This document shows positions 16,963 through 38,444 of a DNA stretch of 43,135 bases, in pieces. Every line of letters starts with the position of its first letter. Position 1 is the first letter of the stretch. This stretch comes from a virus: IMG/VR virus record IMGVR_UViG_3300031787_000251, positions 1 through 43,135 of that record. One strand, written 5' to 3'. The translations under genes were made by a program, and so were the position numbers. The notes below the pieces were generated by a model. That model made no database searches, was not told the DNA's origin, and saw nothing but the letters and a program-made list of their open reading frames with translations.

Positions 16963-16972
16963 GTGCGTTGAG
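16963..16972 (+). promoter_or_regulatory. late motif copy 1 (GTGCGTTGAG), upstream of the lysis genes
   Basis: An exact 10-mer, 4 nt after the stop of the 16275 gene. Forty nt downstream lies an ATG (17003) that opens a 13-codon leader peptide ending at the start of the 17041 gene. See the other copies at 20289, 20696, 21936, 24910, 27067, 29602 and 38435. Confidence 0.6.
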
Positions 16973-17002
16973 GGTGCGAGGTCGAGGCGGCGATGTGCGG
17001 GC

Positions 17003-17044
17003 ATGCAAACGCGCGCGCACGAAGGCTGGGGTGGCAACGGATGA
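17003..17044 (+). CDS. possible 13-aa leader peptide
   Basis: An ATG exactly 40 nt after the start of the late motif at 16963, the same distance as for the leaderless late genes, opens a 13-codon frame rich in Arg, His and Gly. Its TGA (17042-17044) overlaps the ATG of the next gene (17041-17043). If transcription starts at or near this ATG, translation of the peptide would feed ribosomes to the lysis genes by coupling. Coding status is inferred from geometry only. Confidence 0.35.
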   Translation: MQTRAHEGWGGNG

Positions 17045-17268
17045 CTCTGCATTCGGACGCGCGAAAGTTGAACTGGGCGATGATTGGCGTGATCGTCGCG
17101 CTGGTAGCTCAGGCGACGACGCTGGTCTTCTGGGGTGGCGGGATCAATCAGCGCGTCTCGACCCTTGAGCGCACGGTCGCGCCGCTGGCGGATGGGACGC
17201 TGGCCCGGCTGGATGAGCGGACAGAGGCCATGCAGAAGCAGCTTGACCGCATAGAGCGTGCGCGATGA
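17041..17268 (+). CDS. small membrane protein with coiled coil (75 aa)
   Basis: One transmembrane helix (about 13-34: AMIGVIVALVAQATTLVFWG) is followed by a coiled-coil-like tail (STLERTVAPLADGTLARLDE, RTEAMQKQLDRIERA). This type is common directly before the holin in phage lysis cassettes and may be a holin partner or antiholin. A longer in-frame start at 16993 (91 aa) exists but lies upstream of the presumed transcript start, so I prefer 17041. ATGA overlap with the holin gene. Confidence 0.6.
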   Translation: MTLHSDARKLNWAMIGVIVALVAQATTLVFWGGGINQRVSTLERTVAPLADGTLARLDERTEAMQKQLDRIERAR

Positions 17269-17504
17269 CCGACCACACCGCCCTGCCGGACCATCCGATC
17301 CGCACGCACTGGGCGTGGCAGTGCTTTGACCGTCTGTGGCGGCCGTCTGCTGGATGGGTCGTCGTTGCCGGACTGGCCTACGCCGGCGTGATCGGCCCCG
17401 CAATCCAGCGCCCCATGCCGGAGGGCTACCTCGTCGCCTGGCTCACCTTCTGCGCGGCGATGCTGGGCCTCAAGACCATCGAGAAAATCCGGGGGGTGGC
17501 GTGA
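17265..17504 (+). CDS. putative holin (79 aa)
   Basis: Forms membrane lesions that time lysis and release the endolysin. Two strong transmembrane segments are visible, about 29-47 (AGWVVVAGLAYAGVIGPAI) and 54-72 (GYLVAWLTFCAAMLGLKTIE), with a short basic C-terminus (KIRGVA). The N-terminus is polar, rich in His and Trp. The gene lies immediately before the endolysin with a GTGA overlap, the usual holin position. Confidence 0.75.
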   Translation: MTDHTALPDHPIRTHWAWQCFDRLWRPSAGWVVVAGLAYAGVIGPAIQRPMPEGYLVAWLTFCAAMLGLKTIEKIRGVA

Positions 17505-17995
17505 GTATCTGGATGCCTTACGCGCGTTCGCTGATCGGCGTGCGCGAAGTCCCCGGCGCGGGCAATAGCGCCACGATCATGGGCTGGGCCAAGCGGCTCG
17601 GCGCGAAGGTTCTCGGCATCAGCTACGCCGCCGACTCCGTCCCGTGGTGCGGCCTGTTCTGCGCGCACGTCATGGACCATGCAGGCATCAAGTCCCCGCC
17701 GATCGCCGTCCGTGCATCGGAGTGGGGCAAGTGGGGCCGCAAGTTGCTGGCTCCCCGACCTGGCTGCATCCTGACCTTCACGCGGGCCGGAGGAGGTCAC
17801 GTCGGCTTCTATGTCGGCGAGGACGACACACACCTGCACGTCCTTGGCGGCAATCAGGGCGACGCCGTCTCGATCACCCGCATCGCCCGCAATCGCCTGT
17901 CGGAGATGCGCTGGCCGAATGAGATACCGCTGCCCGTCGCTCGGGTTGTCAGGCTGAAGGCCAACGGCACGCCGATCACGGTGAACGAGCAATGA
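17501..17995 (+). CDS. endolysin, CHAP/NlpC-P60-like cysteine amidase (TIGR02594 type)
   Basis: A cell-wall hydrolase, 164 aa from GTG 17501 (GTGA overlap). The catalytic Cys is in VPWCGLFCAHVM (Cys50). The catalytic His is in GGGHVGFYVGED (His100), and the third polar residue is probably Asn118 in HVLGGNQGD. This is the layout of the TIGR02594 family common in alphaproteobacterial phages. No signal peptide or SAR domain is present, so release depends on the holin. Its catalytic domain makes up nearly the whole protein. Confidence 0.85.
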   Translation: MSIWMPYARSLIGVREVPGAGNSATIMGWAKRLGAKVLGISYAADSVPWCGLFCAHVMDHAGIKSPPIAVRASEWGKWGRKLLAPRPGCILTFTRAGGGHVGFYVGEDDTHLHVLGGNQGDAVSITRIARNRLSEMRWPNEIPLPVARVVRLKANGTPITVNEQ

Positions 17996-18201
17996 CCGAC
18001 TTCCGCGACATGCAAGACGCCCCGCAAGATGGGACGTGGATTGTCGGCATCGACGAGGACGGGCGCGAGGCCCGAATCCAGTCGCGCATCACGCATCCGC
18101 TGTGTCCGACCGTCAGACACTGGGGGGAAGGCGAGGTCGTGATGGAGGGGCACTGGGAGCGCAGCAAGTGCTTCTATCCTGTCGCGTGGAGGCCGGAATG
18201 A
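17992..18201 (+). CDS. hypothetical protein, DUF551-like (69 aa)
   Basis: It begins with FRDMQDAPQDGTWIVGID, the xxxAPKDGTxIL pattern shared by many small phage proteins, and ends with VVMEGHWERSKCFYPVAWRP, giving the Trp-rich close of that group. Function unknown. It overlaps the endolysin (ATGA) and the i-spanin gene, so it is embedded in the lysis cassette. Confidence 0.55.
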   Translation: MTDFRDMQDAPQDGTWIVGIDEDGREARIQSRITHPLCPTVRHWGEGEVVMEGHWERSKCFYPVAWRPE

Positions 18202-18527
18202 CCCGCTACCTGCTCGCTGCATTGGCCGTGGCTCTGGCGCTTGCCGGCGTGCAGTCGTGGCGCGTCGACCGGCTCAAGAACGAGCTGATCGAGGCCAACG
18301 CCGAACTCAAGACCCTGCGTGACTTCAAGGTCGCTGCGCAGGATGACGCCCAAACCCAGGCCGATCAATGCCTGGCCCGCGTGAACGAGGCCCGTCAGTC
18401 GGCCCGGCGCATCGAGACCATCATCGAGAGGCCGATCCATGTCGATCCCCAAGGCTGTGCTGTGCGCGAGCTTGTTCCTTCTGGCGAGTTGCGCGACGCA
18501 CTCCAACCAACCGCCCCTGCCGCCTAG
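18198..18527 (+). CDS. Rz: inner-membrane spanin (Rz-like)
   Basis: With the outer-membrane partner it bridges the envelope and disrupts the outer membrane in the last step of lysis. A single N-terminal membrane anchor (YLLAALAVALALAGVQSW, 3-20) is followed by a long periplasmic coiled coil (VDRLKNELIEANAELKTLRD, then QADQCLARVNEARQSARRIE). Length 109 aa is typical. The o-spanin gene starts inside it at 18439 in another frame, the classic nested Rz/Rz1 layout. The ATG at 18198 is chosen for the hydrophobic start and the ATGA overlap. Confidence 0.85.
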   Translation: MTRYLLAALAVALALAGVQSWRVDRLKNELIEANAELKTLRDFKVAAQDDAQTQADQCLARVNEARQSARRIETIIERPIHVDPQGCAVRELVPSGELRDALQPTAPAA

Positions 18528-18705
18528 CCTCTGCACCGAGGTCCGGCCGGAGCCTGTGCTGCCGGATAGCGCCGGTCTTGTCGCTCCCGTCACCAATGCC
18601 GAGAAGGACGCCACGCGCGACCTGCTGGCATGGGCGTCCGAGGTTCTGGACTGGGGCCGTGAGGGCTGGGGCCGGGCCGGCACGGCGCGGGAGTTGTGCG
18701 AGTGA
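18439..18705 (+). CDS. Rz1: outer-membrane lipoprotein spanin (Rz1-like)
   Basis: It begins inside Rz in a different frame. A lipoprotein signal peptide with lipobox LLASC (Cys18) directs it to the outer membrane, and a proline-rich stretch (QPPLPPSLC, then VRPEPVLP) follows, as usual for Rz1. At 88 aa it is longer than lambda Rz1 and extends about 178 bp beyond the end of Rz with a helical C-terminus (EKDATRDLLAWASEVLDWGR). Confidence 0.8.
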   Translation: MSIPKAVLCASLFLLASCATHSNQPPLPPSLCTEVRPEPVLPDSAGLVAPVTNAEKDATRDLLAWASEVLDWGREGWGRAGTARELCE

Positions 18706-19913
18706 CCGGCCTCCGGTTCGTCCCGCCGCAGGACGCGGTGCCGACCGAGGCTCTGCTCCGCTTCTGCGAGACGGAGCGCCAGCGAGAGTGCGTGCAGGCC
18801 GTCATTGACATTGGCAGCATTACCCACGCCGCCAGACACCTGAACACGGACGACCGCAGCTTCCGACGGATGCTGGCGCAGATCCGCGCCCGCGCTGCTG
18901 CGCAGGGCCACGCGCCTGAGTACGGCATGACCGAGCAGGTGCCGGACGGGTTCAAGCTCAAAGGCCGATCTGTCCTGCGCAAACTGGATCCGGTCACCGG
19001 CCAGCGTGTCGAGGTGCTGTCCTGGGACAAGTCGAGCGCGGACGATGAGCGCCGGGCTGAGATGCTGCGGGAGGCGTTTGCCGCCCTCAGCGAGGAGGTG
19101 CCGCGCGTTGCGTCCATAGCCCCGCCGGCGAGCACCAACGAGGCGCTGTGCAACCTGTTCACCCTGACCGATTCCCATGTCGGCATGCTGGCGTGGCGCA
19201 AGGAGGGCGGGGCCGACTGGGACATGCAGATCGCCGAGGACACGCTGGTCGGCTGCTTTGAGCAGATGGTCGAGCGATCGCCCTGCGCCGACACCTGCGT
19301 CGTCAACCAGCTTGGCGATTTTCTGCACTATGACGGCCTGCTGCCGGTGACGCCGGGCCACGGGCATGTGCTGGACGCCGACGGACGGTTCTCCAAGATG
19401 GTCCGCACGGCGATCCGCATTCTGCGCCGGGTGATTGATCTGGCGCTCTCCCGCCACAAGACCGTCTTTGTCGTCATGGCCGAGGGTAACCACGACCTTG
19501 CCTCGAGCGTCTGGCTCCGCATCATGTTCGGCGCCCTGTACGAGAACGAGCCGCGCGTGAAGGTCATCGACAGCGAGCTGCCTTACTACGTCCACGTCCA
19601 CGGCGAGACCATGCTGGCGTTCCACCACGGGCACCTGAAGAAGAACGACGGCCTGCCCCTGCTGTTCGCCGCTCAGTACCCGCGCGAGTGGGGCGCGACG
19701 ACAAAGCGATACGCCCACACCGGCCACCGGCATCACGAGGAGATCAAGGAGCACAGCGGCATGAAGGTGACGCAGCACTCGACCCTTGCGGCGCGCGACG
19801 CCTATGCGGCCCGCGGCGGCTGGCACAGCGACAGGCAGGCCACGGCCTACACCTACCACAGTCGGTGGGGGCAGGTCGGCTCTGTGACCGTCTCGCCGGA
19901 GATGGTCGCATGA
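18702..19913 (+). CDS. metallophosphoesterase-like protein with N-terminal HTH
   Basis: A calcineurin-like phosphoesterase, 403 aa from GTG 18702 (GTGA overlap with the o-spanin; GTG 18696 is also possible). Metal-site motifs occur in order: TDSHVGM (about 156-162), GDFLHYD (about 203-209), GNHD (about 262-265), FHHGHLKKND (about 306-315) and TGHRHH (about 339-344). Residues about 25-60 (CVQAVIDIGSITHAARHLNT, DRSFRRMLAQIRA) look like a helix-turn-helix. Related proteins are often found near phage packaging genes. The substrate (DNA ends or nucleotides) is not known. Confidence 0.75.
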   Translation: MTGLRFVPPQDAVPTEALLRFCETERQRECVQAVIDIGSITHAARHLNTDDRSFRRMLAQIRARAAAQGHAPEYGMTEQVPDGFKLKGRSVLRKLDPVTGQRVEVLSWDKSSADDERRAEMLREAFAALSEEVPRVASIAPPASTNEALCNLFTLTDSHVGMLAWRKEGGADWDMQIAEDTLVGCFEQMVERSPCADTCVVNQLGDFLHYDGLLPVTPGHGHVLDADGRFSKMVRTAIRILRRVIDLALSRHKTVFVVMAEGNHDLASSVWLRIMFGALYENEPRVKVIDSELPYYVHVHGETMLAFHHGHLKKNDGLPLLFAAQYPREWGATTKRYAHTGHRHHEEIKEHSGMKVTQHSTLAARDAYAARGGWHSDRQATAYTYHSRWGQVGSVTVSPEMVA

Positions 19914-20092
19914 TCGTGGCCGGCACACCCGAGCACGCTGTCTGGCAGGCAGAGCAACTGGTCAAAAACAAGAAAGCCTCCGCCAAGCGCGCACGCTGGG
20001 CCGCGCGCCTTGGCCGCCCGTTCCCGAGATCCGCGACCGACCTGCGGCCTGATCCGGGCACCCTGGACGTCGACGATGTGGAGATGGGGTAG
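19910..20092 (+). CDS. small basic hypothetical protein (60 aa)
   Basis: Family not recognised. Basic helical N-terminal half (HAVWQAEQLVKNKKASAKRA, RWAARLGRPF) and an acidic end (PGTLDVDDVEMG). ATGA overlap with the phosphoesterase gene. A packaging role is conceivable from position, but unsupported. Confidence 0.5.
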   Translation: MIVAGTPEHAVWQAEQLVKNKKASAKRARWAARLGRPFPRSATDLRPDPGTLDVDDVEMG

Positions 20093-20093
20093 G

Positions 20094-20297
20094 ATGGACG
20101 ACTGGGACGACGAGGACTGGCTGCCGTGGTTTGAGACTGGCACCTGCTACGATCTGAGCGGGCAGGAGGAACCGCCACGGTTCAAGTCCGTAAGCCCCGC
20201 CGCCCACCGCGCCTTTCAGATCGGCAAGGCCATGAAGGCGCGAGATGCCGCCGAATCGCATCGCGGCCCGCTCGGCTTTCACCGCCCCGTGCGTTGA
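20094..20297 (+). CDS. small hypothetical protein (67 aa)
   Basis: Family not recognised. The start is very acidic and Trp-rich (MDDWDDEDWLPWFETG), the end basic. The ATG lies 1 nt after the previous stop. The stop codon TGA is the TGA inside the late motif GTGCGTTGAG at 20289-20298, so the last two codons and stop are supplied by that element. Confidence 0.5.
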   Translation: MDDWDDEDWLPWFETGTCYDLSGQEEPPRFKSVSPAAHRAFQIGKAMKARDAAESHRGPLGFHRPVR

Positions 20298-20298
20298 G
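20289..20298 (+). promoter_or_regulatory. late motif copy 2 (GTGCGTTGAG)
   Basis: An exact copy, overlapping the end of the 20094 gene. A transcript starting about 39-40 nt further on (20328-20329) would begin just before the Shine-Dalgarno of the 20341 gene and omit the 5' arm of the SD hairpin at 20315-20336. Confidence 0.6.
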
Positions 20299-20314
20299 GC
20301 AGCCCCACCCCGAC

Positions 20315-20336
20315 CCCCTCCTACACACAGGAGGGG
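20315..20336 (+). promoter_or_regulatory. Shine-Dalgarno-sequestering hairpin
   Basis: CCCCTCCT (20315-20322), loop ACACAC, AGGAGGGG (20329-20336): a perfect 8-bp GC-rich stem whose 3' arm holds the AGGAGG ribosome binding site of the ATG at 20341. Read-through transcripts should be poorly translated. Transcripts starting after the 5' arm should be free. Confidence 0.65.
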
Positions 20337-20340
20337 CGCA

Positions 20341-20693
20341 TGCTGAAAACCCTGATCGCAGCCTTGGCTGTCACGCTCATACCCACCATGTCAGGCCCCT
20401 CCGCCTCTACGCAGGAAGTCCGGCTCTTTGTGCCCTCGCCTGAAGCGGTCGAGGCCCCGCCGGCCAAATACGATCATGCCCCTGACCAGCCGTTCGTCGT
20501 CATCGTCGGCACGCCGTATCAGGTGCACATGGCGTGCGGTGGCCAGCCGCCCCCGGCGCGGGACATCATCATGGCCTGCACCTTCATGCCCAGGCGCGTG
20601 ATCCTGCTGCCGCACTGTCCGGCCGAGCAGGACGCCTATTGCGGCAAGCTCCTGCGTCACGAGATTGCGCACCTCAACGGCTGGGTTCACTGA
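20341..20693 (+). CDS. secreted HExxH protein, putative small metallopeptidase (117 aa)
   Basis: An N-terminal signal peptide (MLKTLIAALAVTLIPTMSG) suggests export. The C-terminus has RHEIAHLNGW with a zinc-binding HExxH (His107, Glu108, His111) followed by GW, as in small phage and bacterial proteins of the HEIAHxNGW type. His117 at the very end could be a further ligand. Four cysteines (66, 80, 93, 101) may form disulfides in the periplasm. It follows the lysis genes, so a role in the envelope is plausible. Its SD lies in a hairpin (20315-20336). Confidence 0.65.
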
Positions 20694-20695
20694 CG

Positions 20696-20705
20696 GTGCG
20701 TTGAG
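20696..20705 (+). promoter_or_regulatory. late motif copy 3 (GTGCGTTGAG)
   Basis: An exact copy 3 nt after the stop of the 20341 gene. The presumed start about 39-40 nt downstream (20735) falls just before the SD (AGGAG, 20740-20744) of the gene at 20753. Confidence 0.6.
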
Positions 20706-20752
20706 CGACCCTTGGGCTTGCGGCGTGGTGTCCACGAACAGGAGACCCAACG

Positions 20753-21013
20753 ATGCCCGTTGTGCGCAACCCATTCGCTGCCGGTGATAACGGCGCTGCA
20801 GACGACGCGGTGGCGATCACGCCGTCCGACACGACCTATTTTGCGATCTGCCGCGGCATCTACGTCGGCGTAGGTGGCGACGTCGTCGTCATCACCGCCC
20901 AGGACAATGCGGTGACGTTCAAGAACGCTGCGTCTGGCACGGTGCTCCCGGTGAACTGCCAGCGGGTGAACGCCACCAGCACCACCGCAACGAACCTGGT
21001 CGCCCTCTACTGA
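20753..21013 (+). CDS. small virion-type protein (86 aa)
   Basis: A beta-rich protein (ICRGIYVGVGGDVVVITAQD, VTFKNAASGTVLPVNCQRVN) of a type common among tailed phages of alphaproteobacteria, ending in TTATNLVALY. Related proteins are usually annotated only as phage structural or hypothetical. A good AGGAG site precedes the ATG. The stop overlaps the next ATG (TGATG). Confidence 0.6.
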   Translation: MPVVRNPFAAGDNGAADDAVAITPSDTTYFAICRGIYVGVGGDVVVITAQDNAVTFKNAASGTVLPVNCQRVNATSTTATNLVALY

Positions 21014-21930
21014 TGCTCGGGATCGGCATAGATCTCGCATCGCTTTCCAAGGCTGCCATTTTCCACGACTTCCGCGCCGCCATGCCCGCAGGCTCGACCT
21101 ACACGCGGGTCGGCGCGGCGACCGCGCTGACAGCGGCAGGCGTGATCGAGACGTTTGCGGAGGATGCGCCACAGCGGACGGATCGGGGCCTTGCGCTAGA
21201 GCCTGCCGCGACCAACCTTCTGCGGCGCTCGCAAGAGTTCGACAACGGTTCGTATGCCAGAACCAATATCTTTGGTGTGACGGCCAACGCCGTTATCGCT
21301 CCGGACGGCACAACGACCGCTGATACCGTGGTCGCCAGCACGGCCAACGCGCAACACCGCCTCGATCAGACGCCGGTATCGTCGGCAGGAACGCAGACGT
21401 ATTCCATATTCGGTGTCCCGACGGGTTACGGGTTCGTCACTCAACGGCTGGGCACGGTCGGTTCCGGGGTGGTGTTTGACCTCAACACGGGCACGATTGT
21501 CGGCAATGAGGCGGGCGTTACGCCATCCCTGCTGGCGGTATCCCGCAGCTTCTACCGTAGCGCTGTGGCGATTACGGGCGTGGCCGCGAACGCGATCGCG
21601 CGCGTCAACATCAGCCCCACCTCCAACGTCACCTTCGCGGGCGACGACGTTTCCGGTGTTACTCTGTGGCAGGCCCAACTTGAGCTTGGCTCGGTCGCAA
21701 CGTCTCCCATCGTCACGACAGGCACAACGGCATCACGCAGCCTGCCGGTGTTCACGGAGCCGGTTCCTGCCGGCCACACCAGGGCGCTGCTGACCTATGC
21801 CGACGCCACGACGACTCTGGTCACAGGCCTGACGCCGGGCGGGACGCTTGACGTTGCGACCGCTGTGATCGGCGCGAGCAAGGGTCGTTTTGGTGCGTCG
21901 GAACTGGTGTCGCGGACCTGGCTGCCGTAA
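21013..21930 (+). CDS. tail fibre / carbohydrate-binding-like virion protein (305 aa)
   Basis: The middle (about 70-235) has the pattern seen in phage adhesins with a concanavalin-like or carbohydrate-binding module: ATNLLRRSQEFDNGSY, then TANAVIAPDGTTTADTVVAS, later GDDVSGVTLWQAQLELG. Flanking regions are Thr/Ala-rich. It may be a host-recognition or head-decoration component in addition to the 38474 spike. It is translationally coupled to the 20753 gene and ends 5 nt before late motif copy 4. Confidence 0.6.
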   Translation: MLGIGIDLASLSKAAIFHDFRAAMPAGSTYTRVGAATALTAAGVIETFAEDAPQRTDRGLALEPAATNLLRRSQEFDNGSYARTNIFGVTANAVIAPDGTTTADTVVASTANAQHRLDQTPVSSAGTQTYSIFGVPTGYGFVTQRLGTVGSGVVFDLNTGTIVGNEAGVTPSLLAVSRSFYRSAVAITGVAANAIARVNISPTSNVTFAGDDVSGVTLWQAQLELGSVATSPIVTTGTTASRSLPVFTEPVPAGHTRALLTYADATTTLVTGLTPGGTLDVATAVIGASKGRFGASELVSRTWLP

Positions 21931-21935
21931 TCCTC

Positions 21936-21945
21936 GTGCGTTGAG
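21936..21945 (+). promoter_or_regulatory. late motif copy 4 (GTGCGTTGAG), upstream of the terminase gene
   Basis: An exact copy. The preceding CCTC and following CC make a 16-bp identity with the copy at 38435. The terminase ATG (21976) is 40 nt downstream and has no recognisable Shine-Dalgarno. Confidence 0.65.
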
Positions 21946-21975
21946 CCCATAGCCAGCGCCGCGCCTTCTCCGCGT

Positions 21976-24564
21976 ATGGCCCGCAAGGCAGCATCCCAAC
22001 CACCGCGCGAGCCGATCCGCTTTGAGCCTGATGGCCGAATCCTGTCGGCGTTCCTGCTCGCGGACAATGAGTTCGACATCATCCAGGGGCCGATCGGCTC
22101 GGGCAAGACCGACGCCGCGATCATGCGCCTGTTCCGGCATGCAAGTCAGCAACCGCCGCAAGGCGATAAGGTCCGGCGCTCCCGCTTCGCCATCGTCCGC
22201 TCGACCTTCCCTGAGCTGAAGACGACGACGATCCCCTCGTTCGTGAACCTGTTTCCCGAGGGCTCGGAGGCGCAGGGCGGCTTCGGCGAGATGTCGTGGT
22301 CGCCGCCGTTCACCTACCACATGCGCTACGGCGACATGGAAGCCGAGTTCATCTTCCTCGCGCTGGACAAAGACGACGATGTCAAGAAGCTGCGCTCGCT
22401 GCAGTTGACCGGGATCTATTTCAACGAGCTTCAGTACATCAGCCTGATGCTGGTGACGGAGGGGTTGTCGCGTTGCGGCCGCTATCCGTCCGTCAAGAAC
22501 GGCGGGTGCAACTGGTCCGGCGGCATCGCTGACATGAACGCGCCCGAGAGCCTGCACTGGGCGCCCATCATGTTCGGCAAGGCGCCCGTGCCGGACCACT
22601 TCACGCCGGACGACGTGCAGAAGCACCGCCGCCCGCCCGGCTGGTGCCTGTATGTCCAGCCGCCGGCGCTGCTGGTGCTGGACGATGCGCTGAAGGCCTC
22701 TGGGCTGGAGCCGCTGAATCCGGGCGACGAGGTCGAGTACTGCGTCAACCCTGGCGCCGAGAACCTGCGCTGGCTTAGGCCGGACTACTACCCCAAGAAA
22801 ATCCACGGCGTGACGCGCCAGTGGATCGACGCCAACTGCCGCAACATCGCCGCCAGCCAGATGAAGGGTAAGGCGGTGCACCCGCTGTTCCGCGGCGAGG
22901 GTGAGCGCAACAGCCACGTCAGCCCGAACGCGCTCAAGTTCAATCCCGAGCTGGAGCTCTACGTCGGCATGGACTTCGGCCTGACGCCGGCGGTCGTGTT
23001 TGGCCAGACCATCCGCGGCCGCGTCTTCGTGCTGGGCGAGCTCTACGCCGAGGGCGTCGGCGCGGTGAGCTTCGCGCCCGTGGTCAAGCGCGAGATCCTG
23101 CGCCGCTTCGGCGGCCTCGATCTGGCGCGCGTCAAGTTCATCGGCGACCCTGGCAGCGCCGTCCGGTCACAGACCGACGAGCAAACCCCGTTCGACATCT
23201 TCCGCCAGCAAGGCATGCCGGTCCGACCGGCCCCCGGCGCCAACCGCTTCTCCAAGGTCGGCGGGCGCAAGGAGGTGGTCGACAGCCTGCTCGAGCGTCA
23301 GGTCGACGGCTATCAGGCGCTGATGATTGACCCCGGCTGCCGCATGCTGGTGCAAGGCCTGAGCGGCGGCTACCAGTTCAAGGTCACCAAGTCCTCGTTC
23401 GGCGAGTTCGTCTCCGACGACGTCGTCAAGAACCAGTACAGTCACACCTGCTTTGTGGCCGGGACGTTGGTGAGCACGCCGTCCGGCCGCGTGCCGATTG
23501 AGACGCTTCAGCCCGGTGATCTCGTCCTGACCCCAAATGGCGCGCAGAGGGTCGCGGCCTGCATGAACCGCCCCGCGTCCGACTTGGTGCAGGTTCATCT
23601 CTCCAATGGCCGCAAGATCACTTGCACGCCCGAGCATCACTTCGCTGTTGATGGCGTGCGTTTTGTGCGTGCTGATGCTTTGCAGTATAATGATCTCCTA
23701 GTCGGAGAATGTGATTCATGGGCAGACCCGCGAAGTACCCAATCCAAGAGTTCAACGGGCGGCGCTATTACCGTCGACCCGGCCCCAGCGGTTATTACCG
23801 CTGCGACCCCAAGTTTGGCGGGCGCTACATGCATCGCGTCGTCTGGGAGCACCATCACGGGCCGATCCCCGATGACCATCATATCCACCACGTCGACGGA
23901 GACGCAGCCAACAACGCAATCGAAAATCTGGAGGCGATGCACGCGGAGGATCACGCAAAGCACCACTGGATTCACGACGGACCTATGCCGCAAAACTGCG
24001 CGGGGTTTCTGGCTACCATGCGGCTCAAAGCTGCTGAGGCAAAGAAGTGCCCAGAATATCGCCGACGCGCCAGCGCCGCCGCCAAGCTCGACGCCTCAAA
24101 GCGCGAGCCTCAGCAACACGAGTGCGTCTGGTGCGCTAAGCCCTACTGGGTCAAATACGGCTACAGAAAAAAGGGCTTCTGCTCCATGTCCTGTCAGGGC
24201 ATGGCCCGCAGGGCTTCCGGCGTGGATGACGTGGATCGGATCTGCGTTCAGTGCGGCGTCGGCTTCCGCACCAACAAATATTCAAAGGTCACGCACTGCT
24301 CCAAGAGTTGTTCGGGTCGAACCGCTGCGGCTCTACGGCTCGCTACCCGTCTATGACTTAGAGGTCGAAAACGAGCACGTCTTCTACGTGGAGGGCGCGC
24401 TGGTCTCGAACTGTGACGCGTTCCAATACCTCCTGCTGGGTATGGGCGAGGGCGGGAACCTGCTGTTCGGTGCCGGCCGCAACGTCGCCGCAGTACAGAC
24501 CAAGGTGCAGGCGCGGGTGTTCGATCGCGGATCGCGCGCGCCGCTGTTCCGGGCCCGGCGATGA
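21976..24564 (+). CDS. terL: terminase large subunit interrupted by an intein
   Basis: A packaging motor and nuclease. Walker A GPIGSGKT is at 38-45, a Walker B-like GIYFNE at about 146-151. The RNase H-like nuclease has acidic residues in GMDFG (Asp334), FIGDPGS (Asp391) and CDAFQY (Asp814). An intein of 321 residues (492-812) separates QYSHT from CDAFQYLLLG, so splicing would rebuild the conserved SHxxDAxQYL nuclease motif and give a mature protein of about 541 aa. The whole 862-codon frame is open. Without splicing the nuclease should be inactive. The ATG has no SD and lies 40 nt after late motif copy 4. ATGA overlap with the following gene. Confidence 0.85.
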   Translation: MARKAASQPPREPIRFEPDGRILSAFLLADNEFDIIQGPIGSGKTDAAIMRLFRHASQQPPQGDKVRRSRFAIVRSTFPELKTTTIPSFVNLFPEGSEAQGGFGEMSWSPPFTYHMRYGDMEAEFIFLALDKDDDVKKLRSLQLTGIYFNELQYISLMLVTEGLSRCGRYPSVKNGGCNWSGGIADMNAPESLHWAPIMFGKAPVPDHFTPDDVQKHRRPPGWCLYVQPPALLVLDDALKASGLEPLNPGDEVEYCVNPGAENLRWLRPDYYPKKIHGVTRQWIDANCRNIAASQMKGKAVHPLFRGEGERNSHVSPNALKFNPELELYVGMDFGLTPAVVFGQTIRGRVFVLGELYAEGVGAVSFAPVVKREILRRFGGLDLARVKFIGDPGSAVRSQTDEQTPFDIFRQQGMPVRPAPGANRFSKVGGRKEVVDSLLERQVDGYQALMIDPGCRMLVQGLSGGYQFKVTKSSFGEFVSDDVVKNQYSHTCFVAGTLVSTPSGRVPIETLQPGDLVLTPNGAQRVAACMNRPASDLVQVHLSNGRKITCTPEHHFAVDGVRFVRADALQYNDLLVGECDSWADPRSTQSKSSTGGAITVDPAPAVITAATPSLAGATCIASSGSTITGRSPMTIISTTSTETQPTTQSKIWRRCTRRITQSTTGFTTDLCRKTARGFWLPCGSKLLRQRSAQNIADAPAPPPSSTPQSASLSNTSASGALSPTGSNTATEKRASAPCPVRAWPAGLPAWMTWIGSAFSAASASAPTNIQRSRTAPRVVRVEPLRLYGSLPVYDLEVENEHVFYVEGALVSNCDAFQYLLLGMGEGGNLLFGAGRNVAAVQTKVQARVFDRGSRAPLFRARR
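23449..24411 (+). other. intein in the terminase nuclease motif (321 codons)
   Basis: The N-terminal splicing domain begins at Cys492: CFVAGTLVSTPSGRVPIETL, then QPGDLVLTPNG (block A) and KITCTPEHHFAVDG (block B, with the TxxH). The C-terminal domain has VYDLEVENEHVFYVEGALVS (blocks F/G) ending in Asn812, followed by Cys813 as the +1 nucleophile. The usual penultimate His is replaced by Ser (SN|C), which some inteins tolerate. The middle of the intein in this frame (about residues 582-780) is Ser/Thr/Pro/Ala-rich with no endonuclease motif. The endonuclease is encoded there in another frame (23718-24356). Confidence 0.85.
23718..24356 (+). CDS. HNH homing endonuclease nested out of frame inside the intein
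   Basis: A 212-aa protein read in the +2 frame relative to terL. The HNH_3-type domain is near the start: YMHRVVWEHHHGPIPDDHHI at 37-56, HHVDGDAANNAIENLEAM at 57-74 (His57/His58, Asn66/Asn70), closed by a His near 79. Two zinc fingers follow: CVWC at 136-139 with C155/C159, and CVQC at 176-179 with C194/C198. GGAGA lies 9 nt before the ATG, so it can be translated independently. Its last codons overlap block F of the intein, so both frames are constrained there. It would promote spread of the intein by cutting intein-free terL alleles. Confidence 0.85.
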   Translation: MGRPAKYPIQEFNGRRYYRRPGPSGYYRCDPKFGGRYMHRVVWEHHHGPIPDDHHIHHVDGDAANNAIENLEAMHAEDHAKHHWIHDGPMPQNCAGFLATMRLKAAEAKKCPEYRRRASAAAKLDASKREPQQHECVWCAKPYWVKYGYRKKGFCSMSCQGMARRASGVDDVDRICVQCGVGFRTNKYSKVTHCSKSCSGRTAAALRLATRL

Positions 24565-24989
24565 TCGAAACCGACGACGCTCTCTCGGGCATGCCGCCGC
24601 ATTGGTATGTCGCTTTTTACGACGGCGATCGGCGGTATTGGTGGTCGAGCCTGTGCCGCGTTGGCTTTCGCCACGTCGCCGCGTTCGGCTATTGCGCCGA
24701 GCAGGCCGCGTGGCTGCTGTACGACGTCACGACCCGCCGTACCCTGATCCGCATGCTGACGCCCAGTCAGATGGACGCATGGGTCGAGGCCTTGCCGGAC
24801 AACCGCCGCATCGTCGCGTTCGAGCCGGTCGGCGAGCCTGTTGAGCCCGGCGTCCGCATTGGCTTCTGGTGCACGCCGGCGGTCGCGCATCTGGTCGGCG
24901 CGCGGTCCCGTGCGTTGAGACCGGAGGCCTTCTACCGCGATCTGATTGCTCAAGGTGCGCGACCCGCGTTCGAGAGCAGGCAGGCATGA
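24561..24989 (+). CDS. hypothetical protein (142 aa)
   Basis: Family not recognised. Aromatic-rich (HWYVAFYDGDRRYWWSSLCR, GYCAEQAAWLLYDVTTRRTL), predicted alpha/beta. It lies between the terminase and the connector genes with ATGA overlaps on both sides. It contains an exact late motif (24910-24919), which here is translated as part of RALRP, the only copy inside a gene body. Confidence 0.55.
   Translation: MIETDDALSGMPPHWYVAFYDGDRRYWWSSLCRVGFRHVAAFGYCAEQAAWLLYDVTTRRTLIRMLTPSQMDAWVEALPDNRRIVAFEPVGEPVEPGVRIGFWCTPAVAHLVGARSRALRPEAFYRDLIAQGARPAFESRQA
24910..24919 (+). promoter_or_regulatory. late motif copy 5 (GTGCGTTGAG), inside the 24561 gene
   Basis: An exact copy within coding sequence, 76 nt before the ATG at 24986. 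A start about 40 nt downstream (24950) would give a short leader before the connector operon. It could be a chance match, but its position ahead of the portal genes fits the pattern. Confidence 0.45.
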
Positions 24990-25294
24990 GGACTCCGAAG
25001 GTCACGCTTCCCGAAGAAGATCCGGCCACGAAAGCCGCGCGCGAGCGTGAGGAGCGTCGGGCTGAGAACGCGCGCACCGAGGAGACCCAAGCCTGGCTGC
25101 TGGGGGCAACCGGACGGCGCAACCGCCGTTTTGGCTCGCTGCCCGGCGGCGGTGGCGGGTCCGTCCCGATCGTGGGCGGCCCGATGACTCCCGGCGTCGG
25201 CTCGCCCGGCGGTTCAGGCGCGGGGTCTGGCACCGCTTTCGCCGGCGGCTCGCGTTTCGGCTCCGCTGACCGCAGCCTCTCGGTGATGTACTGA
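24986..25294 (+). CDS. hypothetical Gly-rich protein upstream of the portal (102 aa)
   Basis: Family not recognised. The first 45 residues are charged and helical (TKAAREREERRAENARTEET), the rest is a Gly/Ser/Pro-rich flexible tail (LPGGGGGSVPIVGGPMTPGV). This form is common next to portals in T7-like and BPP-1-like phages. The ATG at 24986 overlaps the previous TGA, and its stop overlaps the portal ATG. Confidence 0.6.
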   Translation: MRTPKVTLPEEDPATKAAREREERRAENARTEETQAWLLGATGRRNRRFGSLPGGGGGSVPIVGGPMTPGVGSPGGSGAGSGTAFAGGSRFGSADRSLSVMY

Positions 25295-26817
25295 TGGCCA
25301 ACGCCAAACAGATCCTCGCCCGCGTTGCCGCAGCGAGGCAGGACAAGGCGCGTCACGCGACATGGATTGACGAGACGCTGCGCCTGGCGCTGCCGACCTA
25401 TCGCCGATGCAACGACCGATCCGACTCCTCGCTCCGCATTGAGGAGCAGGACGACCAGTTCGACAATGAGCTCGAGATCGTCGCCGAGGATTTCGCGTCG
25501 GACATGATCTCGACCTTCACCCCGCGCCACGAGCGGTGGGTGATGTTCGAGCCGGCGGACGACCTGTCGGAGGGCCAGAAGCGCGAGATCGCGCCTCAGC
25601 TCGCCGCGATCGGCGACGCCGTGTTCGCTGAGATCGAGCGGTCAAACTACTGGGACGCCGCGCAGGAGTGCTTCGCGTACTGGGGCGTGTCGGCGATGGC
25701 GGTGGCCCTGTCGGACATGGGGCCGCTGAACCCGCTGCATTTCCAGCCGATCGAGATTCCCGACTTGCTGATGGAGCGCGGCCCCGACGGGTCCGTGACC
25801 GGCAAGTGGCGTGAGATGAAACTGACCCAGGCGGAGCAAAACATGCTCTGGGGCGCGTCGATGGGGAAAGAGTTTCCAGCGTTCAGCGGTGTCGGCAAGG
25901 ACAAGAAGCAACGGATCGTCGAGGGCTGTGACCGCGACTGGTCGACGCCGGGCGTTGAGCGGTGGAGCTACCGGATCTTCGTCGACGACAAGGAGCGGGT
26001 GAACCTCACCTATGAGGGTGCCGGCTCCTGCCCGATCATCACCTGCCGCTTTCGCCAGCAGGCCGATTCCGCGTGGGGCCCCGGCCCGTTCAAGAAGGCG
26101 ACGCCGCGTGCTCGCGTGCTGGATGAGCTTGCGTACCTGAACCTTAAGGGTCTGGGCCGCACGATCGACCCGGCCTTCTCCTACGAGGAGGACGGCCTCG
26201 CCAACTTTGACGGCGGCATGGAGCCCGGCAAGGGCTTCGCCCGCGCGCCGCAATCCAAGGCGCCCGAGGCCTTCCTGCCGGACGTGCGGTTCGACGCCTC
26301 GTTCTTCGCCGCCGACGAGATGCGCAAGGGCATCAAGCGCGCCTGCTACCAGGACCGTCCCGAGCAGCCCGGCGATACGCCGCCGACGCTGGGTCAGTGG
26401 ATGGACGAGAAGGCGTGGAACACGCGCCGCAAGGAGCTGCCGCGCGACCGCTGCGTCCGCGAGTGGGTGCTGCCGATCATCGAGCGCGTGGCGTGGATTC
26501 TCGCCAAGCGCGGCGTGCTGCCCGAGGTCAAGCTCAAGGGTGGCAAGATCGTGAACTGCCGGCCGATCAGCCCGCTGTCCAAGGCCAAGGATCTCGAGGA
26601 CATGAACCTCACGGGGCAGGTGCTGTCGATGGCCGCCAGCATCGGAGGGGCCATGCAGGTCGGCGTGCCGGTCGATGCCAAGGCCACGATGGAGAACCTG
26701 ATCGCCACGGCGAAGGAACGCCACATCGTCATGAAGTCGGACGAGCAGATCATGGCCGAGCAGGCCGCTCAAATGATGGCCCAAGGCGGAGGCATGCCAG
26801 ATGTCGGGGCCGCGTAG
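25294..26817 (+). CDS. portal / head-to-tail connector protein (T7-like)
   Basis: 507 aa, forming the dodecameric connector through which DNA enters and leaves. The start (AARQDKARHATWIDETLRLA, LPTYRRC) and the conserved FASDMISTFTPRHERWVMFE, then YWDAAQECFAYWGVSAMAVA, are typical of the podoviral head-tail connector family. The C-terminal part has LNLKGLGRTIDPAFSYEEDG. Its length agrees with T7 gp8 (about 536 aa). Position between terminase and scaffold is the usual one. Confidence 0.85.
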   Translation: MANAKQILARVAAARQDKARHATWIDETLRLALPTYRRCNDRSDSSLRIEEQDDQFDNELEIVAEDFASDMISTFTPRHERWVMFEPADDLSEGQKREIAPQLAAIGDAVFAEIERSNYWDAAQECFAYWGVSAMAVALSDMGPLNPLHFQPIEIPDLLMERGPDGSVTGKWREMKLTQAEQNMLWGASMGKEFPAFSGVGKDKKQRIVEGCDRDWSTPGVERWSYRIFVDDKERVNLTYEGAGSCPIITCRFRQQADSAWGPGPFKKATPRARVLDELAYLNLKGLGRTIDPAFSYEEDGLANFDGGMEPGKGFARAPQSKAPEAFLPDVRFDASFFAADEMRKGIKRACYQDRPEQPGDTPPTLGQWMDEKAWNTRRKELPRDRCVREWVLPIIERVAWILAKRGVLPEVKLKGGKIVNCRPISPLSKAKDLEDMNLTGQVLSMAASIGGAMQVGVPVDAKATMENLIATAKERHIVMKSDEQIMAEQAAQMMAQGGGMPDVGAA

Positions 26818-27061: not shown

Positions 27062-27066
27062 GGTCC

Positions 27067-27076: not shown

Positions 27077-27107
27077 GCTCGCCGCCCACGACCTCACGGT
27101 TCCGATT

Positions 27108-27812: not shown

Positions 27813-27827
27813 GGGGAATCGACCAAC

Positions 27828-28751
27828 ATGACTGCTCAGAATCTCGTTGAATACTCCAAGGGCCTGCAGCCCGGCGTCGAAAAGGCGGTCGTTGAGCTCT
27901 ATGCTCAGTCGTCCGACCTGCTGGCTGCCGTGCCGTGGAAGACCACTGGCGGCGCTTACCAATACACGCTGGAGGCCACCCTGCCGGGCATCGCCTACCG
28001 CGGCGTGAACGAGAGCTACACGCCCGACACCTCGGTTGAGAACCCGCAGGTCGAGCAGGTGTTCATCGCCGGCGGCGAGGCCGACGTCGACAACTACCTG
28101 CTGGCGCTGGACCCCGGTCGCCGCGCCCGCGAGGAAAGCCGCAAGATCAAGCAGATGGCCCGCGCGGTTACCTCTGCCCTGATCACCGGCGACAACTCGA
28201 CCAACCCCAAGTCGCCCGACGGCCTGCAGCGTCGCCTGACCGGCCGCGCCGTGATTGCCAACTCGGCTGCTTCGGGCGGTGCCGCCCTGTCCCTGGCCGC
28301 CCTGGACGAGGCGATCGCCAACACGGTCGACCCGACCCACATCCTGCTGCCCTTCGCCCTTCGCACCAAGTTCGGCGCGACGATGCGGAACCAGACCCTG
28401 TCGGGCAACCTGAACCTGACCAAGGACGACTTCGGTCGTGAGGTCATGACCTACAACGGTCTGCCCTTCCTGGTCGGCTACGAGACCGGCCCGGACACCG
28501 CCCTGCTGCCCTTCACCGAGACCGCTTCCGGCGGCGGCTCTGCTGTCACCTCCTCAATCTACGTCATGTCGCTGAAGGAAGGCCACATCTGCGGCATCCA
28601 GGTCGCGCCGATGTCGGTCAAGGATCTGGGCGAGCTGCAGTCCGAGCCGAAGCACCGCACCCGTATCGAGTGGTTCAACAGCTTCTGCATCGAGAACCCG
28701 TATGCCGCCACCCGCCTGACTTCCATCACCAACGCCGCGATCGTGGCTTAA
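27828..28751 (+). CDS. major capsid protein
   Basis: 307 aa, expected HK97-type fold. A strong GGGGA Shine-Dalgarno precedes the ATG, unlike its neighbours with the late motif, as befits the most abundant virion protein. Typical elements are VPWKTTGGAYQYTLEATLPG, IKQMARAVTSALITGDNS, LRTKFGATMRNQTLSGNL and IEWFNSFCIENPYAATRLTS. The relationship appears closest to BPP-1-like and SU10-like capsids. It follows the scaffold gene by 15 bp. Confidence 0.8.
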   Translation: MTAQNLVEYSKGLQPGVEKAVVELYAQSSDLLAAVPWKTTGGAYQYTLEATLPGIAYRGVNESYTPDTSVENPQVEQVFIAGGEADVDNYLLALDPGRRAREESRKIKQMARAVTSALITGDNSTNPKSPDGLQRRLTGRAVIANSAASGGAALSLAALDEAIANTVDPTHILLPFALRTKFGATMRNQTLSGNLNLTKDDFGREVMTYNGLPFLVGYETGPDTALLPFTETASGGGSAVTSSIYVMSLKEGHICGIQVAPMSVKDLGELQSEPKHRTRIEWFNSFCIENPYAATRLTSITNAAIVA

Positions 28752-28764
28752 GGGGACACCGACC

Positions 28765-29208
28765 ATGGCCACCGCCACTCAGATCCGCTCCTACACCTAC
28801 GACTCGTCCCTCTCGCTCAAGGCGGCCGGCCTGGTCGCCGCTGACGCTGCCGGCTCGCTGATCGTCAACGTCGGCGACGCCACCTTCAAGGGCGTGGCTG
28901 TCATCGATGTGTCCGCAATCGAGATCGCCTCGAATGACGAACGTTACATCATCTCGGTGCAGGGCTCGACGTCGGCGACCTTCGCCAGCGACGTTCAGAA
29001 CCTCGCCTCGCTCGAACTGGGCGCGACCGAGGTCCGCTCCGGCGGCGCCATCGACTCGCTGACCGGGCGCTACGAACTGTTCTTCCTGAACGAGCAGGAC
29101 GGCATCGTGTATCCCTACATCCGCATCTACACGGATGTCTCGGGCGCGATCGCCACGGGCATCAACTACGCCGCCTTCATCGGTCGCGATCACCTGACCA
29201 ACGCATAA
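28765..29208 (+). CDS. capsid decoration / cement-like protein (147 aa)
   Basis: Beta-rich, with repeated strands (GSLIVNVGDATFKGVAVIDV, NDERYIISVQGSTSATF, GRYELFFLNEQDGIVYPYIR). It lies 13 bp downstream of the capsid gene with its own GGGGA site, the position of the Bbp16-type protein in BPP-1-like phages. A capsid-stabilising role is inferred from position and size. Confidence 0.65.
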   Translation: MATATQIRSYTYDSSLSLKAAGLVAADAAGSLIVNVGDATFKGVAVIDVSAIEIASNDERYIISVQGSTSATFASDVQNLASLELGATEVRSGGAIDSLTGRYELFFLNEQDGIVYPYIRIYTDVSGAIATGINYAAFIGRDHLTNA

Positions 29209-29218
29209 GGTGCTGCCG

Positions 29219-29536
29219 ATGCAAGTCGACAAATACGGCAACACCCGCCTGATTGACCGGGAGACCGGCAAGCCGCACGTTTGTTGCGCGGCTTCCGCCC
29301 GCGAGATCCTGCAGGTGGCAAGCCTGGCCGACGACGGCGCTCCGCGCTACGTCTGCGAGGCCGACTATGACGGCCTGTCGGTTGCTGACTCCAAGGCGGC
29401 CAAGGCAGAGGCGGCCAAGGCTGCTGCTGCTGAAGCCAAGGCGGCAAGGGAGGCTGAGGCTGCTGAGGCCAAGGCCCGTCTTGACGCCGCCGTTGACGCT
29501 GAGATCGCCCGTCGCAAGAAGGCCGGCGCTCTCTAG
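29219..29536 (+). CDS. hypothetical protein with Ala/Lys-rich coiled coil (105 aa)
   Basis: The N-terminal 55 residues have three cysteines (VCCAAS, YVCEAD), perhaps metal-binding. Residues about 62-98 are a long charged helix of Ala/Lys/Glu repeats (KAEAAKAAAAEAKAAREAEA). The ATG at 29219 is preferred over GTG 29210. It is the last gene of the capsid operon, followed by a terminator. Confidence 0.6.
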   Translation: MQVDKYGNTRLIDRETGKPHVCCAASAREILQVASLADDGAPRYVCEADYDGLSVADSKAAKAEAAKAAAAEAKAAREAEAAEAKARLDAAVDAEIARRKKAGAL

Positions 29537-29562
29537 CACTCTCTCCGGGTGAGGCTGAACTG

Positions 29563-29597
29563 AACCCGTCGTTCTTCGGAGCGGCGGGTTCTTCTTT
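29563..29597 (+). terminator. Rho-independent terminator of the capsid operon
   Basis: AACCCGTCG (29563-29571) pairs with CGGCGGGTT (29582-29590), nine pairs with one G-U, followed by CTTCTTT. It ends 5 nt before late motif copy 7, a terminator-then-promoter junction that supports a promoter role for the motif. Confidence 0.8.
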
Positions 29598-29601
29598 GCC
29601 C

Positions 29602-29611
29602 GTGCGTTGAG
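29602..29611 (+). promoter_or_regulatory. late motif copy 7 (GTGCGTTGAG), upstream of the tail tube genes
   Basis: An exact copy directly after the terminator at 29563-29597. The ATG at 29641 is 39 nt downstream and has no Shine-Dalgarno. The sequence before this ATG (GCAACCTGCGCCCATG) resembles that before the 38474 ATG (GCAATCTGGCCTCATG). Confidence 0.65.
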
Positions 29612-29640
29612 CCGCCACCGCCCTCGCGCAACCTGCGCCC

Positions 29641-30255
29641 ATGCCTGCCTTCTCCGCCCCCATCGAGGTCGTCCAGGCCGCCCTGCACCGCATTGGTGAG
29701 GAGGAGATCACGTCGCTCGACGATGACTCGTCCGGCGCCCGTGTCGCGTCCTCGAACTACGAGGGCATCGTCCGCAGTTTTTTCGCGCGCCACGCATGGA
29801 CCTTCGCCAAGCAGACGCTGGCGTTGACGTACCAGGGCGCGGTCACGCTGGGCCCGTACCTGCACGCATTTGTCTGGCCGTCGACGGTCATGAATATCCG
29901 TTACGTCATGCAGGACGGCGTCCGGCTGCGCACGGGCGAGTACACGATCGAAAGCGGCCGGGTGCTGACGCGCTCCAATCGACCCTTGCAGGTGGTGGCC
30001 ACGGTGCGCGCTGATGAGGCGGACTGGCCCGGCGACTTCTCTGAGGCCGTGGTCGTGCGCATGCAGGCGCTGTTCCTTGAGGCGTTGTGCGACAAGCCGC
30101 AGGACGCGCGACTGAAGACCCGCGACGCCGATGTGCTGATGCGCGACGCGATCATCCGCGACAAGCGTCAGGAGCCCGGCGTCAGCATTGAGTTCGTCCC
30201 GCTGGCCGAGGCGTGGCGCGGCTCGCGTCCGTCGCGGACGGCGCTTCGTGGCTAG
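29641..30255 (+). CDS. tail tubular protein A-like adaptor (T7 gp11-like)
   Basis: 204 aa, similar in size to T7 gp11 (196 aa). The start (APIEVVQAALHRIGEEEITS, LDDDS) and the motif NYEGIVRSFFARHAWTFAKQ are characteristic of podoviral tail adaptor proteins, which sit between portal and nozzle. The end overlaps the next gene's GTG by 8 bp. Confidence 0.75.
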   Translation: MPAFSAPIEVVQAALHRIGEEEITSLDDDSSGARVASSNYEGIVRSFFARHAWTFAKQTLALTYQGAVTLGPYLHAFVWPSTVMNIRYVMQDGVRLRTGEYTIESGRVLTRSNRPLQVVATVRADEADWPGDFSEAVVVRMQALFLEALCDKPQDARLKTRDADVLMRDAIIRDKRQEPGVSIEFVPLAEAWRGSRPSRTALRG

Positions 30256-37400: not shown

Positions 37401-38429
37401 GCCAAGGCCAAGCTCGCCATCGGCACGGCGCTGTGGTCGGTCTATATCGGCATGGCGATGGACGGCGACCTGACAGGCCGCGGTCCCGGCAACCGTGCGC
37501 AGCGCGAGGCCATGCAGCGTCAGGACGAGTACGGCGGGTCTGTGTTCCAGCCCTACAGCGTCCGGGTCGGCAATCGCTGGTTCAGCTTTGAGCGCGCTGA
37601 CCCTATGGGGCAGGCAATGGGCCTGATGGCTGACATGGCCGACCTGATGAAGAACGGCGACTGGGACGAGGCCGGGCGCACGGAACTGTCCGAGGTCGCG
37701 GCGCACGCCATCGCCTCGATGGGCCAAGCCTTCTTCGACAAGACCATGTTGAGCGGCATCACCGAACTGACCAGCGCCCTGTTGGACGGCAGCAACGGCG
37801 AGGCCGAGCGGCTGCTCATGTCGCGTGCGTCCGCCCTGATCCCTGGCAGTAGCATGGCGCGCACCTTCCGCCGCGCTGACGACCCGTACATGCGCGAGAC
37901 CCACAACATCGCCACGGCCATGATGAACACCATGCCGGGCCTGTCGGACGACCTGCCCCCGCAGCGCGATCTGTGGGGCCGTGAGCGCCGGTACTACACC
38001 GAAGCGCCGACCGACCAGATGTACAATACCCTGGGGCTTCAATCCCGCGGGCAGGGTGGCTCGGCGATCGACCTTGAGATCCTGAACAACGGCGTCTCGG
38101 TGGCCATGCCGAACAGGTCGCTCTCCTACATGCGCGAGACGGTGTCGCTGAAAAACCGCCCGGACATCTACAGCGAGTTTTTGCGCTTGTCCGGCGAGCC
38201 TGCGTTCGAGCACCTGAACGCCGTGGCCGAGGGGCGTCACCCCGACAGTGAGTTCTACTATTCGCTGGACGACGGGCCGACGGGCGGCAAGGCCCAATAC
38301 ATCAGGGATATCATGGGCACCTACCGCGACGAGGCGCGGGCCGCTGTGACCGAGATGTTCGCCAGCGATCTGCAGGCTATGGCGGCTGACAAGGTGCGGC
38401 GTCGCGAGGAGGCGCGCACGGCGGAATAG
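34473..38429 (+). CDS. large internal virion protein with N-terminal M15-like peptidase domain (1318 aa)
   Basis: The first 90 residues have the zinc-ligand pattern of M15A peptidases: SFHTRGTPDDPRAVDLVP (His39, Asp near 51) and GDHIHV (His83 or His85). They probably cut the peptidoglycan peptide bridge during DNA ejection, the role of the lytic domain of T7 gp16. The remaining 1,200 residues are mostly helical, with amphipathic and hydrophobic segments (TSEIIKLVYTNSLLSGIGTP, IPFGTIIMPFLRTPANLISV) suited to crossing the membrane. Length matches the largest ejection proteins of podoviruses (T7 gp16, 1318 aa). It is the last gene before late motif copy 8. Confidence 0.75.
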   Translation: MAIDTVRDVLGAVPGATPTSTFRDPATNRRVGGAANSFHTRGTPDDPRAVDLVPAPGESMDQLEARLRSSGLNTVELLNEGDHIHVAVDGQPREAGAPGQQPGYRVVNVQDLAPEDTPESLAAQGYQFDASTNRWFRNLDAPAPPTPLDSAYAERQAARESLALDQEEAQIIQAAMVPQGVLDGAGAVARDVAQGVGLEMGTAVLSGVKRGFNATMDLIDETGDWIEQYVPGTVMWEGIDGDASTPMSIRLTTQNDAERRMTEARGGDQPNWLQRLGMGQLRAPVSEAERPESVTGRLIEGVSQFATGWVGGGKLLQGWKTAGNAARIGKSMAQGALADFTAFDGQEERLSNLLAEHAPEALAPALNWLAADPEDGEVEGRFKNVIEGTVLGGVVDLLGVGIRRLKAAREVRSAARDAARAEGLQVDPTLAMDEAAARGVAVQAAVREALGNPEGPRFRVAAEAEAPVVTPFQSKVDAADAPVTPRDITASTDNVFDINLARINTPEDVQAVIVGMADKMRDNVDLARRGRISQEATREAANGVDWVDSMGARRTGQAMNAEEIVAYRLALNSSATKLDELAKAVEDNPTIANQFALRRAASVHAAIQNEFFGARAEAGRALNAFKIPADAPATYLRQLDSLLADMGGAGSAVELARRIRQAKAKGDAELNQMVRGGAMARTSEIIKLVYTNSLLSGIGTPIINIAGNGMMLGLNMATRAVSPRLASAFGGKATMQAGEASAMVHGYQQAMRDIFRMNPVQAAQDIGANAGERLRRDGLFRGMAPGLDDAIPPGIGLRAEREEAGSTMGRPLSAAAWRVSEDSTLGRTLDIIQMLVEAPSNLNALTDDFFKTVAARGELHAQAFRRVTTEGLTGEPARTRYADLIQNPTDDMMAAAEKEMHELTFTNATPGIAADFTSLRRSMDDNFTGIPFGTIIMPFLRTPANLISVGMQYSPLAWGMRRYRDDLAAGGAAAETAKAKLAIGTALWSVYIGMAMDGDLTGRGPGNRAQREAMQRQDEYGGSVFQPYSVRVGNRWFSFERADPMGQAMGLMADMADLMKNGDWDEAGRTELSEVAAHAIASMGQAFFDKTMLSGITELTSALLDGSNGEAERLLMSRASALIPGSSMARTFRRADDPYMRETHNIATAMMNTMPGLSDDLPPQRDLWGRERRYYTEAPTDQMYNTLGLQSRGQGGSAIDLEILNNGVSVAMPNRSLSYMRETVSLKNRPDIYSEFLRLSGEPAFEHLNAVAEGRHPDSEFYYSLDDGPTGGKAQYIRDIMGTYRDEARAAVTEMFASDLQAMAADKVRRREEARTAE

Positions 38430-38434
38430 TCCTC

Positions 38435-38444
38435 GTGCGTTGAG
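38435..38444 (+). promoter_or_regulatory. late motif copy 8 (GTGCGTTGAG), upstream of the tail spike
   Basis: An exact copy 5 nt after the previous stop, within a 16-bp identity to copy 4 (CCTCGTGCGTTGAGCC). The spike ATG at 38474 is 39 nt downstream and has no Shine-Dalgarno. Confidence 0.65.

Follow-up and report, generated by a model that had tools for sequence, protein, structure and literature searches.

Putative two-part late promoters, most of them predicted to give leaderless mRNAs, in a viral genome and its relatives

Introduction

The middle promoters of phage T4 carry a MotA box around -30/-40 in place of the -35 element and keep the sigma-70 -10, a case of sigma appropriation. In other phages, small DNA-binding proteins of the P2 Ogr, Mu C and RinA/ArpU types switch on several late promoters, and we know of no case of systematically leaderless virion genes among these small activator systems. 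Here we analyse a stretch of viral DNA of 43,135 nucleotides (IMG/VR record IMGVR_UViG_3300031787_000251; the window) in which repeats of the word GTGCGTTGAG would constitute the upstream half of phage late promoters. As at T4 middle promoters, a phage-specific box appears to substitute for the -35 with a sigma-70 -10 being kept. Unlike there, the genes are late, the mRNAs would be leaderless, the -10 is not TATAAT-like and the candidate factor is of the XRE type, no AsiA- or MotA-like protein having been recognised. With Ogr, Mu C and RinA/ArpU the window shares a candidate small DNA-binding activator of multiple late promoters, but the protein families and the box positions differ.

Late gene control in alphaproteobacterial phages is little known. 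The Caulobacter gene transfer agent is similar in kind, a late gene cluster of phage type in an alphaproteobacterium that has its own activator. In its GafY/GafZ promoter the -35 is AATCAT, the -10 is TATCTTT and the leader measures about 250 nt (PMC11150451), all of which differ from the box promoters, and we rejected GafY/GafZ-type control for this reason. The sigma-70 cofactor GcrA, which has a look-alike encoded in the window, works at m6A-methylated promoters (PMC7403470). A GcrA-dependent promoter was discarded because neither the box nor the -10 consensus contains GANTC and because the GcrA-like gene is absent from three box-bearing phages. TgrL of the Caulobacter phage phiCbK, whose host is related, is likewise an XRE transcription factor, but it is an early gene product that mainly represses host genes (PMC10688885), whereas the XRE protein considered here would be a late activator. 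Caulobacter crescentus has 375 leaderless mRNAs (PMC4117421), a precedent which suggests that the probable hosts tolerate such messages. A literature search for the 10-mer returned only three unrelated papers containing it, and in the library searched we found no description of such a late-promoter system and no paper on 'Microcystis phage Mwe-JY08', one of the relatives discussed below.

Results

A plus-strand word at a fixed distance from late start codons

The word GTGCGTTGAG occurs exactly seven times in the window (16963, 20289, 20696, 21936, 24910, 29602 and 38435), always on the plus strand and only in the late half of the phage; GTGCGTTGAA at 27067, on the same strand, matches it at nine of ten positions. 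This recount of both strands agrees with a preliminary description of the DNA. The minus strand has no exact copy, and a control with the reversed word gave none in the window. When up to one mismatch is allowed, 13 sites are observed; 100 dinucleotide shuffles of the window averaged 4.3 sites and reached at most 10.

Offsets between the first base of the box and the ATG had been given as 40 (terL), 41 (scaffold), 39 (tail adaptor) and 39 (spike), and all were exact on re-measurement. However, these four are not the only starts at this distance, since an ATG at 17003, at offset 40 from the box at 16963, makes five. Two genes had been assigned longer offsets and a Shine–Dalgarno sequence; both indeed have the latter, but one distance, given as 52 nt, is 51 with the ATG at 20340. 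The earlier statement that no consensus -10 is visible does not hold: a -10-like element including the T was found at all eight window sites.

Thus the terL box (21936–21945) is followed by CCTTCT (21964–21969), with transcription predicted to start at the ATG itself (21976). The scaffold gene has the variant box (27067–27076), CACGGT (27095–27100) and an ATG at 27108; the tail adaptor has a box at 29602–29611, CAACCT (29629–29634) and an ATG at 29641; and the spike has a box at 38435–38444, CAATCT (38462–38467) and an ATG at 38474. For gene 20340 the box (20289–20298) precedes CCTCCT (20317–20322), and the Shine–Dalgarno sequence lies 3′ of the predicted start; for gene 20753, which also has a Shine–Dalgarno sequence, the box (20696–20705) precedes CGTGGT (20724–20729). 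One box (24910–24919) lies within gene 24561–24989 and would serve the genes from 24986 onward, with CGATCT at 24938–24943. All these elements are on the plus strand.

The putative lysis-gene promoter consists of a box (16963–16972) that is kept in relatives and the hexamer CGATGT (16991–16996, T at box+33), both on the plus strand. Its ATG opens a predicted leaderless mini-ORF of 13 codons, MQTRAHEGWGGNG (17003–17044, plus strand), whose stop overlaps the start of a holin-like gene (17041) by 4 nt. Each of the nine genomes examined has a short ORF at the +40 ATG. Most of these ORFs begin M-x-(T/S/N)-R-A, and in most genomes the stop forms a GTGA/ATGA-type overlap with the next start codon. 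Translation of the lysis gene therefore looks as if it were coupled to that of the mini-ORF.

Conservation in relatives and selection at the DNA level

A terL search yielded 19 IMG/VR loci as relatives. Conservation at equivalent gene junctions, which the preliminary description had put forward as a check, was borne out: the word is exact at these junctions and the neighbouring sequence has diverged. In whole-record counts over 14 records, the gene strand carries 78 copies and the opposite strand 2. Gene-strand copies number seven in C174, a contig of a Brevundimonas metagenome-assembled genome (MAG), and five each in Mwe-JY08 and contig G018. The terL of Mwe-JY08 is only 37% identical, and the boxes of Mwe-JY08 and G018 are homologously placed. 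G018 came to light through the promoter pattern: when IMG/VR was scanned for box, -10 and ATG, the result was mostly known relatives, this one clear new phage, and isolated single matches that appear to be due to chance. At the right distance, the main group has 73 exact copies (a redundant count), and mismatches there almost always fall in the last two bases, with GTGCGTTG as a practically invariant core.

The box within gene 24561–24989 provides evidence for selection at the DNA level inside a coding sequence. Across 21 homologues, which extend to about 50% protein identity, its codons CGT GCG TTG are unchanged, even though TTG accounts for 7% of the leucine codons here and variation is seen in nearby conserved codons. 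G018 retains the word in this gene despite different amino acids. The outgroups BcepC6B, Hodr, Pmp11, MEP301 and Rollin have no box, nor a convincing relative of the XRE protein (best Hodr, E 0.007).

Architecture of the putative promoters

At 39 of 63 non-redundant sites an ATG without a Shine–Dalgarno sequence stands 39–42 nt from the first base of the box, and nearly all other ATG offsets occur at 0–2 sites each. Start codons at this offset are ATG in 73 of 74 cases. A -10-like hexamer, C-A-n-n-S-T, lies 16–17 bp 3′ of the TTG-containing box. Its final T is present in 13/14, 13/13 and 13/14 sites of the groups with ATG at 39, 40 and 41, respectively, and a T at box+32/33 in 39/41 sites of these three main leaderless groups. 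The hexamer scores 3.99, compared with 2.0–2.2 at control positions. Across 72 sites, with the best of three adjacent offsets taken, T(-7) is found in 71, C(-12) in 58 and A(-11) in 40, so that the positions expected of a sigma-70-type -10, A(-11) and T(-7), can be recognised. The hexamer is poor against TATAAT, and a scan of 14600–30000 for a TTGACA/TATAAT consensus gave no match.

With the ATG taken as +1, TTGAG starts at -35 in the main group and the spacer is 16–17 bp. The promoter would then comprise the box from -40 to -31, the spacer of 16–17 bp, the -10-like element from -12 to -7 and the start at +1. The start codon thus sits where transcription should begin, and we predict leaderless mRNAs on this basis. 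The A of the ATG would be +1 at most box-bearing virion genes (leader 0–1 nt), a few genes having a longer leader that carries a Shine–Dalgarno sequence. Duplex energies agree with the AUG start and missing upstream Shine–Dalgarno sequence of leaderless genes: the ATGs in question have a mean of -1.4 kcal/mol with 8% at or below -6, and the later start codons with a Shine–Dalgarno sequence a mean of -7.5 kcal/mol with 75% at or below -6. Several distant relatives have the box and no leaderless ATG. Altogether, the window holds about eight putative two-part late promoters, most of which would give leaderless mRNAs, in support of the earlier proposal of a late-promoter element with a start near +40 and leaderless messages.

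The box drifts and the rest stays constant

A wider set, obtained with a terL alignment including G018 and Mwe-JY08, added many more distant contigs. A box TGTGCGGTGC, recognised from words repeated in L116 and L117 and not predicted in advance, occurs five times in L116 and four times in L117, all on the plus strand and including internal-gene, scaffold and tail sites. The tail-adaptor sites of both combine a -10 of CACCGT with an ATG at 40, an arrangement identical to that of the window group; the box therefore shifts with the lineage, and the -10 and the start are constant. L118, L136, L140, L141 and L152 have GTGCGTTG followed by other bases, and L135 and L138 have the box state GTGCTTTG at two sites each. 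The view of the box as a plain -35 finds no support, as its TTG is replaced in L116/L117 with -10 and start retained. Such drift fits a division of labour in which a phage factor reads the box and host sigma-70 the -10.

Among the longer of these contigs, several encode homologues of the XRE protein upstream of terL: L116 (E 1e-12), L117 (2e-10) and L120/L121 (1e-13), and also L130 and L140. Despite this close homologue, no box was recognised in L120/L121, where either the box is strongly altered or the XRE protein is used otherwise.

Which protein reads the box

Among 131 Brevundimonas genomes, the word is clustered in a single phage contig; 130 genomes have singles only, and in the remaining one, a 3.5-Mb MAG, 8 of 11 copies are on one 50-kb phage contig and the 3 elsewhere equal the reversed-word control. 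By these counts the box is phage-specific. The lack of enrichment in Brevundimonas chromosomes points to a phage-encoded reader, in line with the special factor called for in the preliminary description.

We searched profiles of window genes in other phages and compared all ORFs pairwise. Between the window and G018 the proteins in common are those of packaging and the virion plus one other, the XRE-type protein at 14930–15331 (133 aa, plus strand, beside terS). It is the sole non-virion family common to all phages with the GTGCGTTGAG box and enough sequence, its gene being found in every one. The profile matches G018 with E 1e-22; the Mwe-JY08 protein is weak against the window profile (E 0.0016) and clear against G018 (2.8e-7), which serves as a bridge. 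Downstream of the XRE gene come the terminase genes and, in the contigs examined, the gene-strand boxes. Of 12 close members, 11 are matched by Pfam HTH_31, with a best E of 2.8e-6; the score of the window protein falls below the curated cut-off. On sequence grounds we assign to this protein an HTH_3/HTH_31-type XRE family domain. Its AlphaFold model is of moderate quality (mean pLDDT 70), and a fold search with it gave no significant match, the best neighbours being weak and mostly XRE-type. From its presence and position we regard this protein as a reasonably likely late activator, which would bind the box and recruit the polymerase late in infection.

The most serious alternative keeps the same promoters and lets the winged-helix protein (8292–8666), the GcrA-like protein (8663–9115) or an unrecognised sigma-like protein read the box, and treats the XRE protein as a neighbour with a separate function. 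XRE proteins are frequently repressors. The sigma-70 cofactor model NF050816 hits the GcrA-like protein at E 2e-11, below its curated cut-off, and GcrA activates sigma-70 transcription in alphaproteobacteria (PMC7403470). However, in profile searches the winged-helix and GcrA-like proteins, the candidates of the preliminary description, are absent from the box-bearing G018 and Mwe-JY08, the GcrA-like one also from box-bearing C174, and the exhaustive comparison with G018 left the XRE protein alone among non-virion proteins. We therefore rejected the two named proteins and consider this alternative as a whole unlikely. The GcrA-like gene occurs in many, not all, relatives. A T7-type phage RNA polymerase was dismissed, as no polymerase gene was found and the 812-aa ORF is a primase. 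PHROG and Pfam scans of the ORFs searched gave no match to MotA or AsiA homologues.

Reading by a host sigma factor or host activator could account for the same word being kept in distantly related phages and for the TTG at the -35 position. The counts in the 131 genomes led us to reject a host promoter class, and the drift of the box with constant -10 and start also argues against a host reader, which is improbable in our judgement.

The second element goes with the box

Of the 28 sites that have no leaderless ATG, 23 also carry a T at box+33, and because of this the second element goes with the box and not with the start codon. Such independence from the ATG is the main argument for a promoter. 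It bears directly on an RNA-level reading, in which a site about 40 nt downstream of the box is cleaved to make leaderless mRNAs from a long transcript. That idea would explain the constant distance to the leaderless ATGs, most copies lying between genes of the same direction, but not a second conserved element at promoter-like spacing that persists without an ATG. Moreover, the tail-adaptor box comes only 10 nt after an intrinsic terminator (29562–29591, plus strand), noted in the preliminary description and real by its folding energy (ΔG -23.9 kcal/mol, z = -3.7), immediately 5′ of the promoter. RNA cleavage seems to us slightly less probable still than a host reader. A strand-biased word for packaging, recombination or replication, Chi-type words included, for which the short, repeated, one-stranded nature of the word might speak, is contradicted by the spacing statistics, by its fixed position relative to start codons and -10 and by its confinement to genes downstream of the XRE gene, and has hardly any probability left.

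Discussion

That the repeats are promoters is strongly supported and very probable. The whole explanation, with two-part, mostly leaderless late promoters at which host RNA polymerase with sigma-70 would read the -10 and a phage-encoded factor, at best the XRE protein, would act on the box, we hold to be likely. With more reserve, we lean towards a widespread and undescribed late-transcription system of short-tailed alphaproteobacterial phages: a terminase-adjacent XRE activator and an evolving GTGCG-type box replacing the -35, transcription starting at the initiation codon, leaderless packaging, scaffold, tail and spike mRNAs, and a mini-ORF coupling transcription to lysis-gene translation.

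The system offers a complete and testable promoter grammar of box, spacer, -10 and start, and its candidate activator can be named. Natural variants also exist whose box is altered and whose remaining parts are constant. The system points to leaderless translation of virion genes by phages, and laboratory hosts of the Caulobacter type could gain from it a compact candidate pair of promoter and activator.

Some further observations concern the genomes themselves. Mwe-JY08 (L057, PP395640.1) has its box and virion genes in common with Brevundimonas-linked phages, and its stated cyanobacterial host looks doubtful. The 60-kb G013 (L028–L030) seemingly has the early region twice, with two winged-helix and two XRE genes, and is possibly an assembly of two phages. 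In the window, several CACTCGAT / ATCGAGTG boxes at 14670–14840, between the minus-strand gene 14013–14687 and the XRE gene, are likely operators of another regulator. A divergent XRE-type repressor (HipB/RstR-like) and a small Cro-like ORF at 592–1210 may form a lysogeny switch. Finally, TerL (21976–24564, 862 aa) contains a long in-frame insert (residues about 490–818) that matches part of the TerL of Tetrasphaera phage TJE1 and is absent from the 541-aa proteins of close relatives; it is probably an intein.
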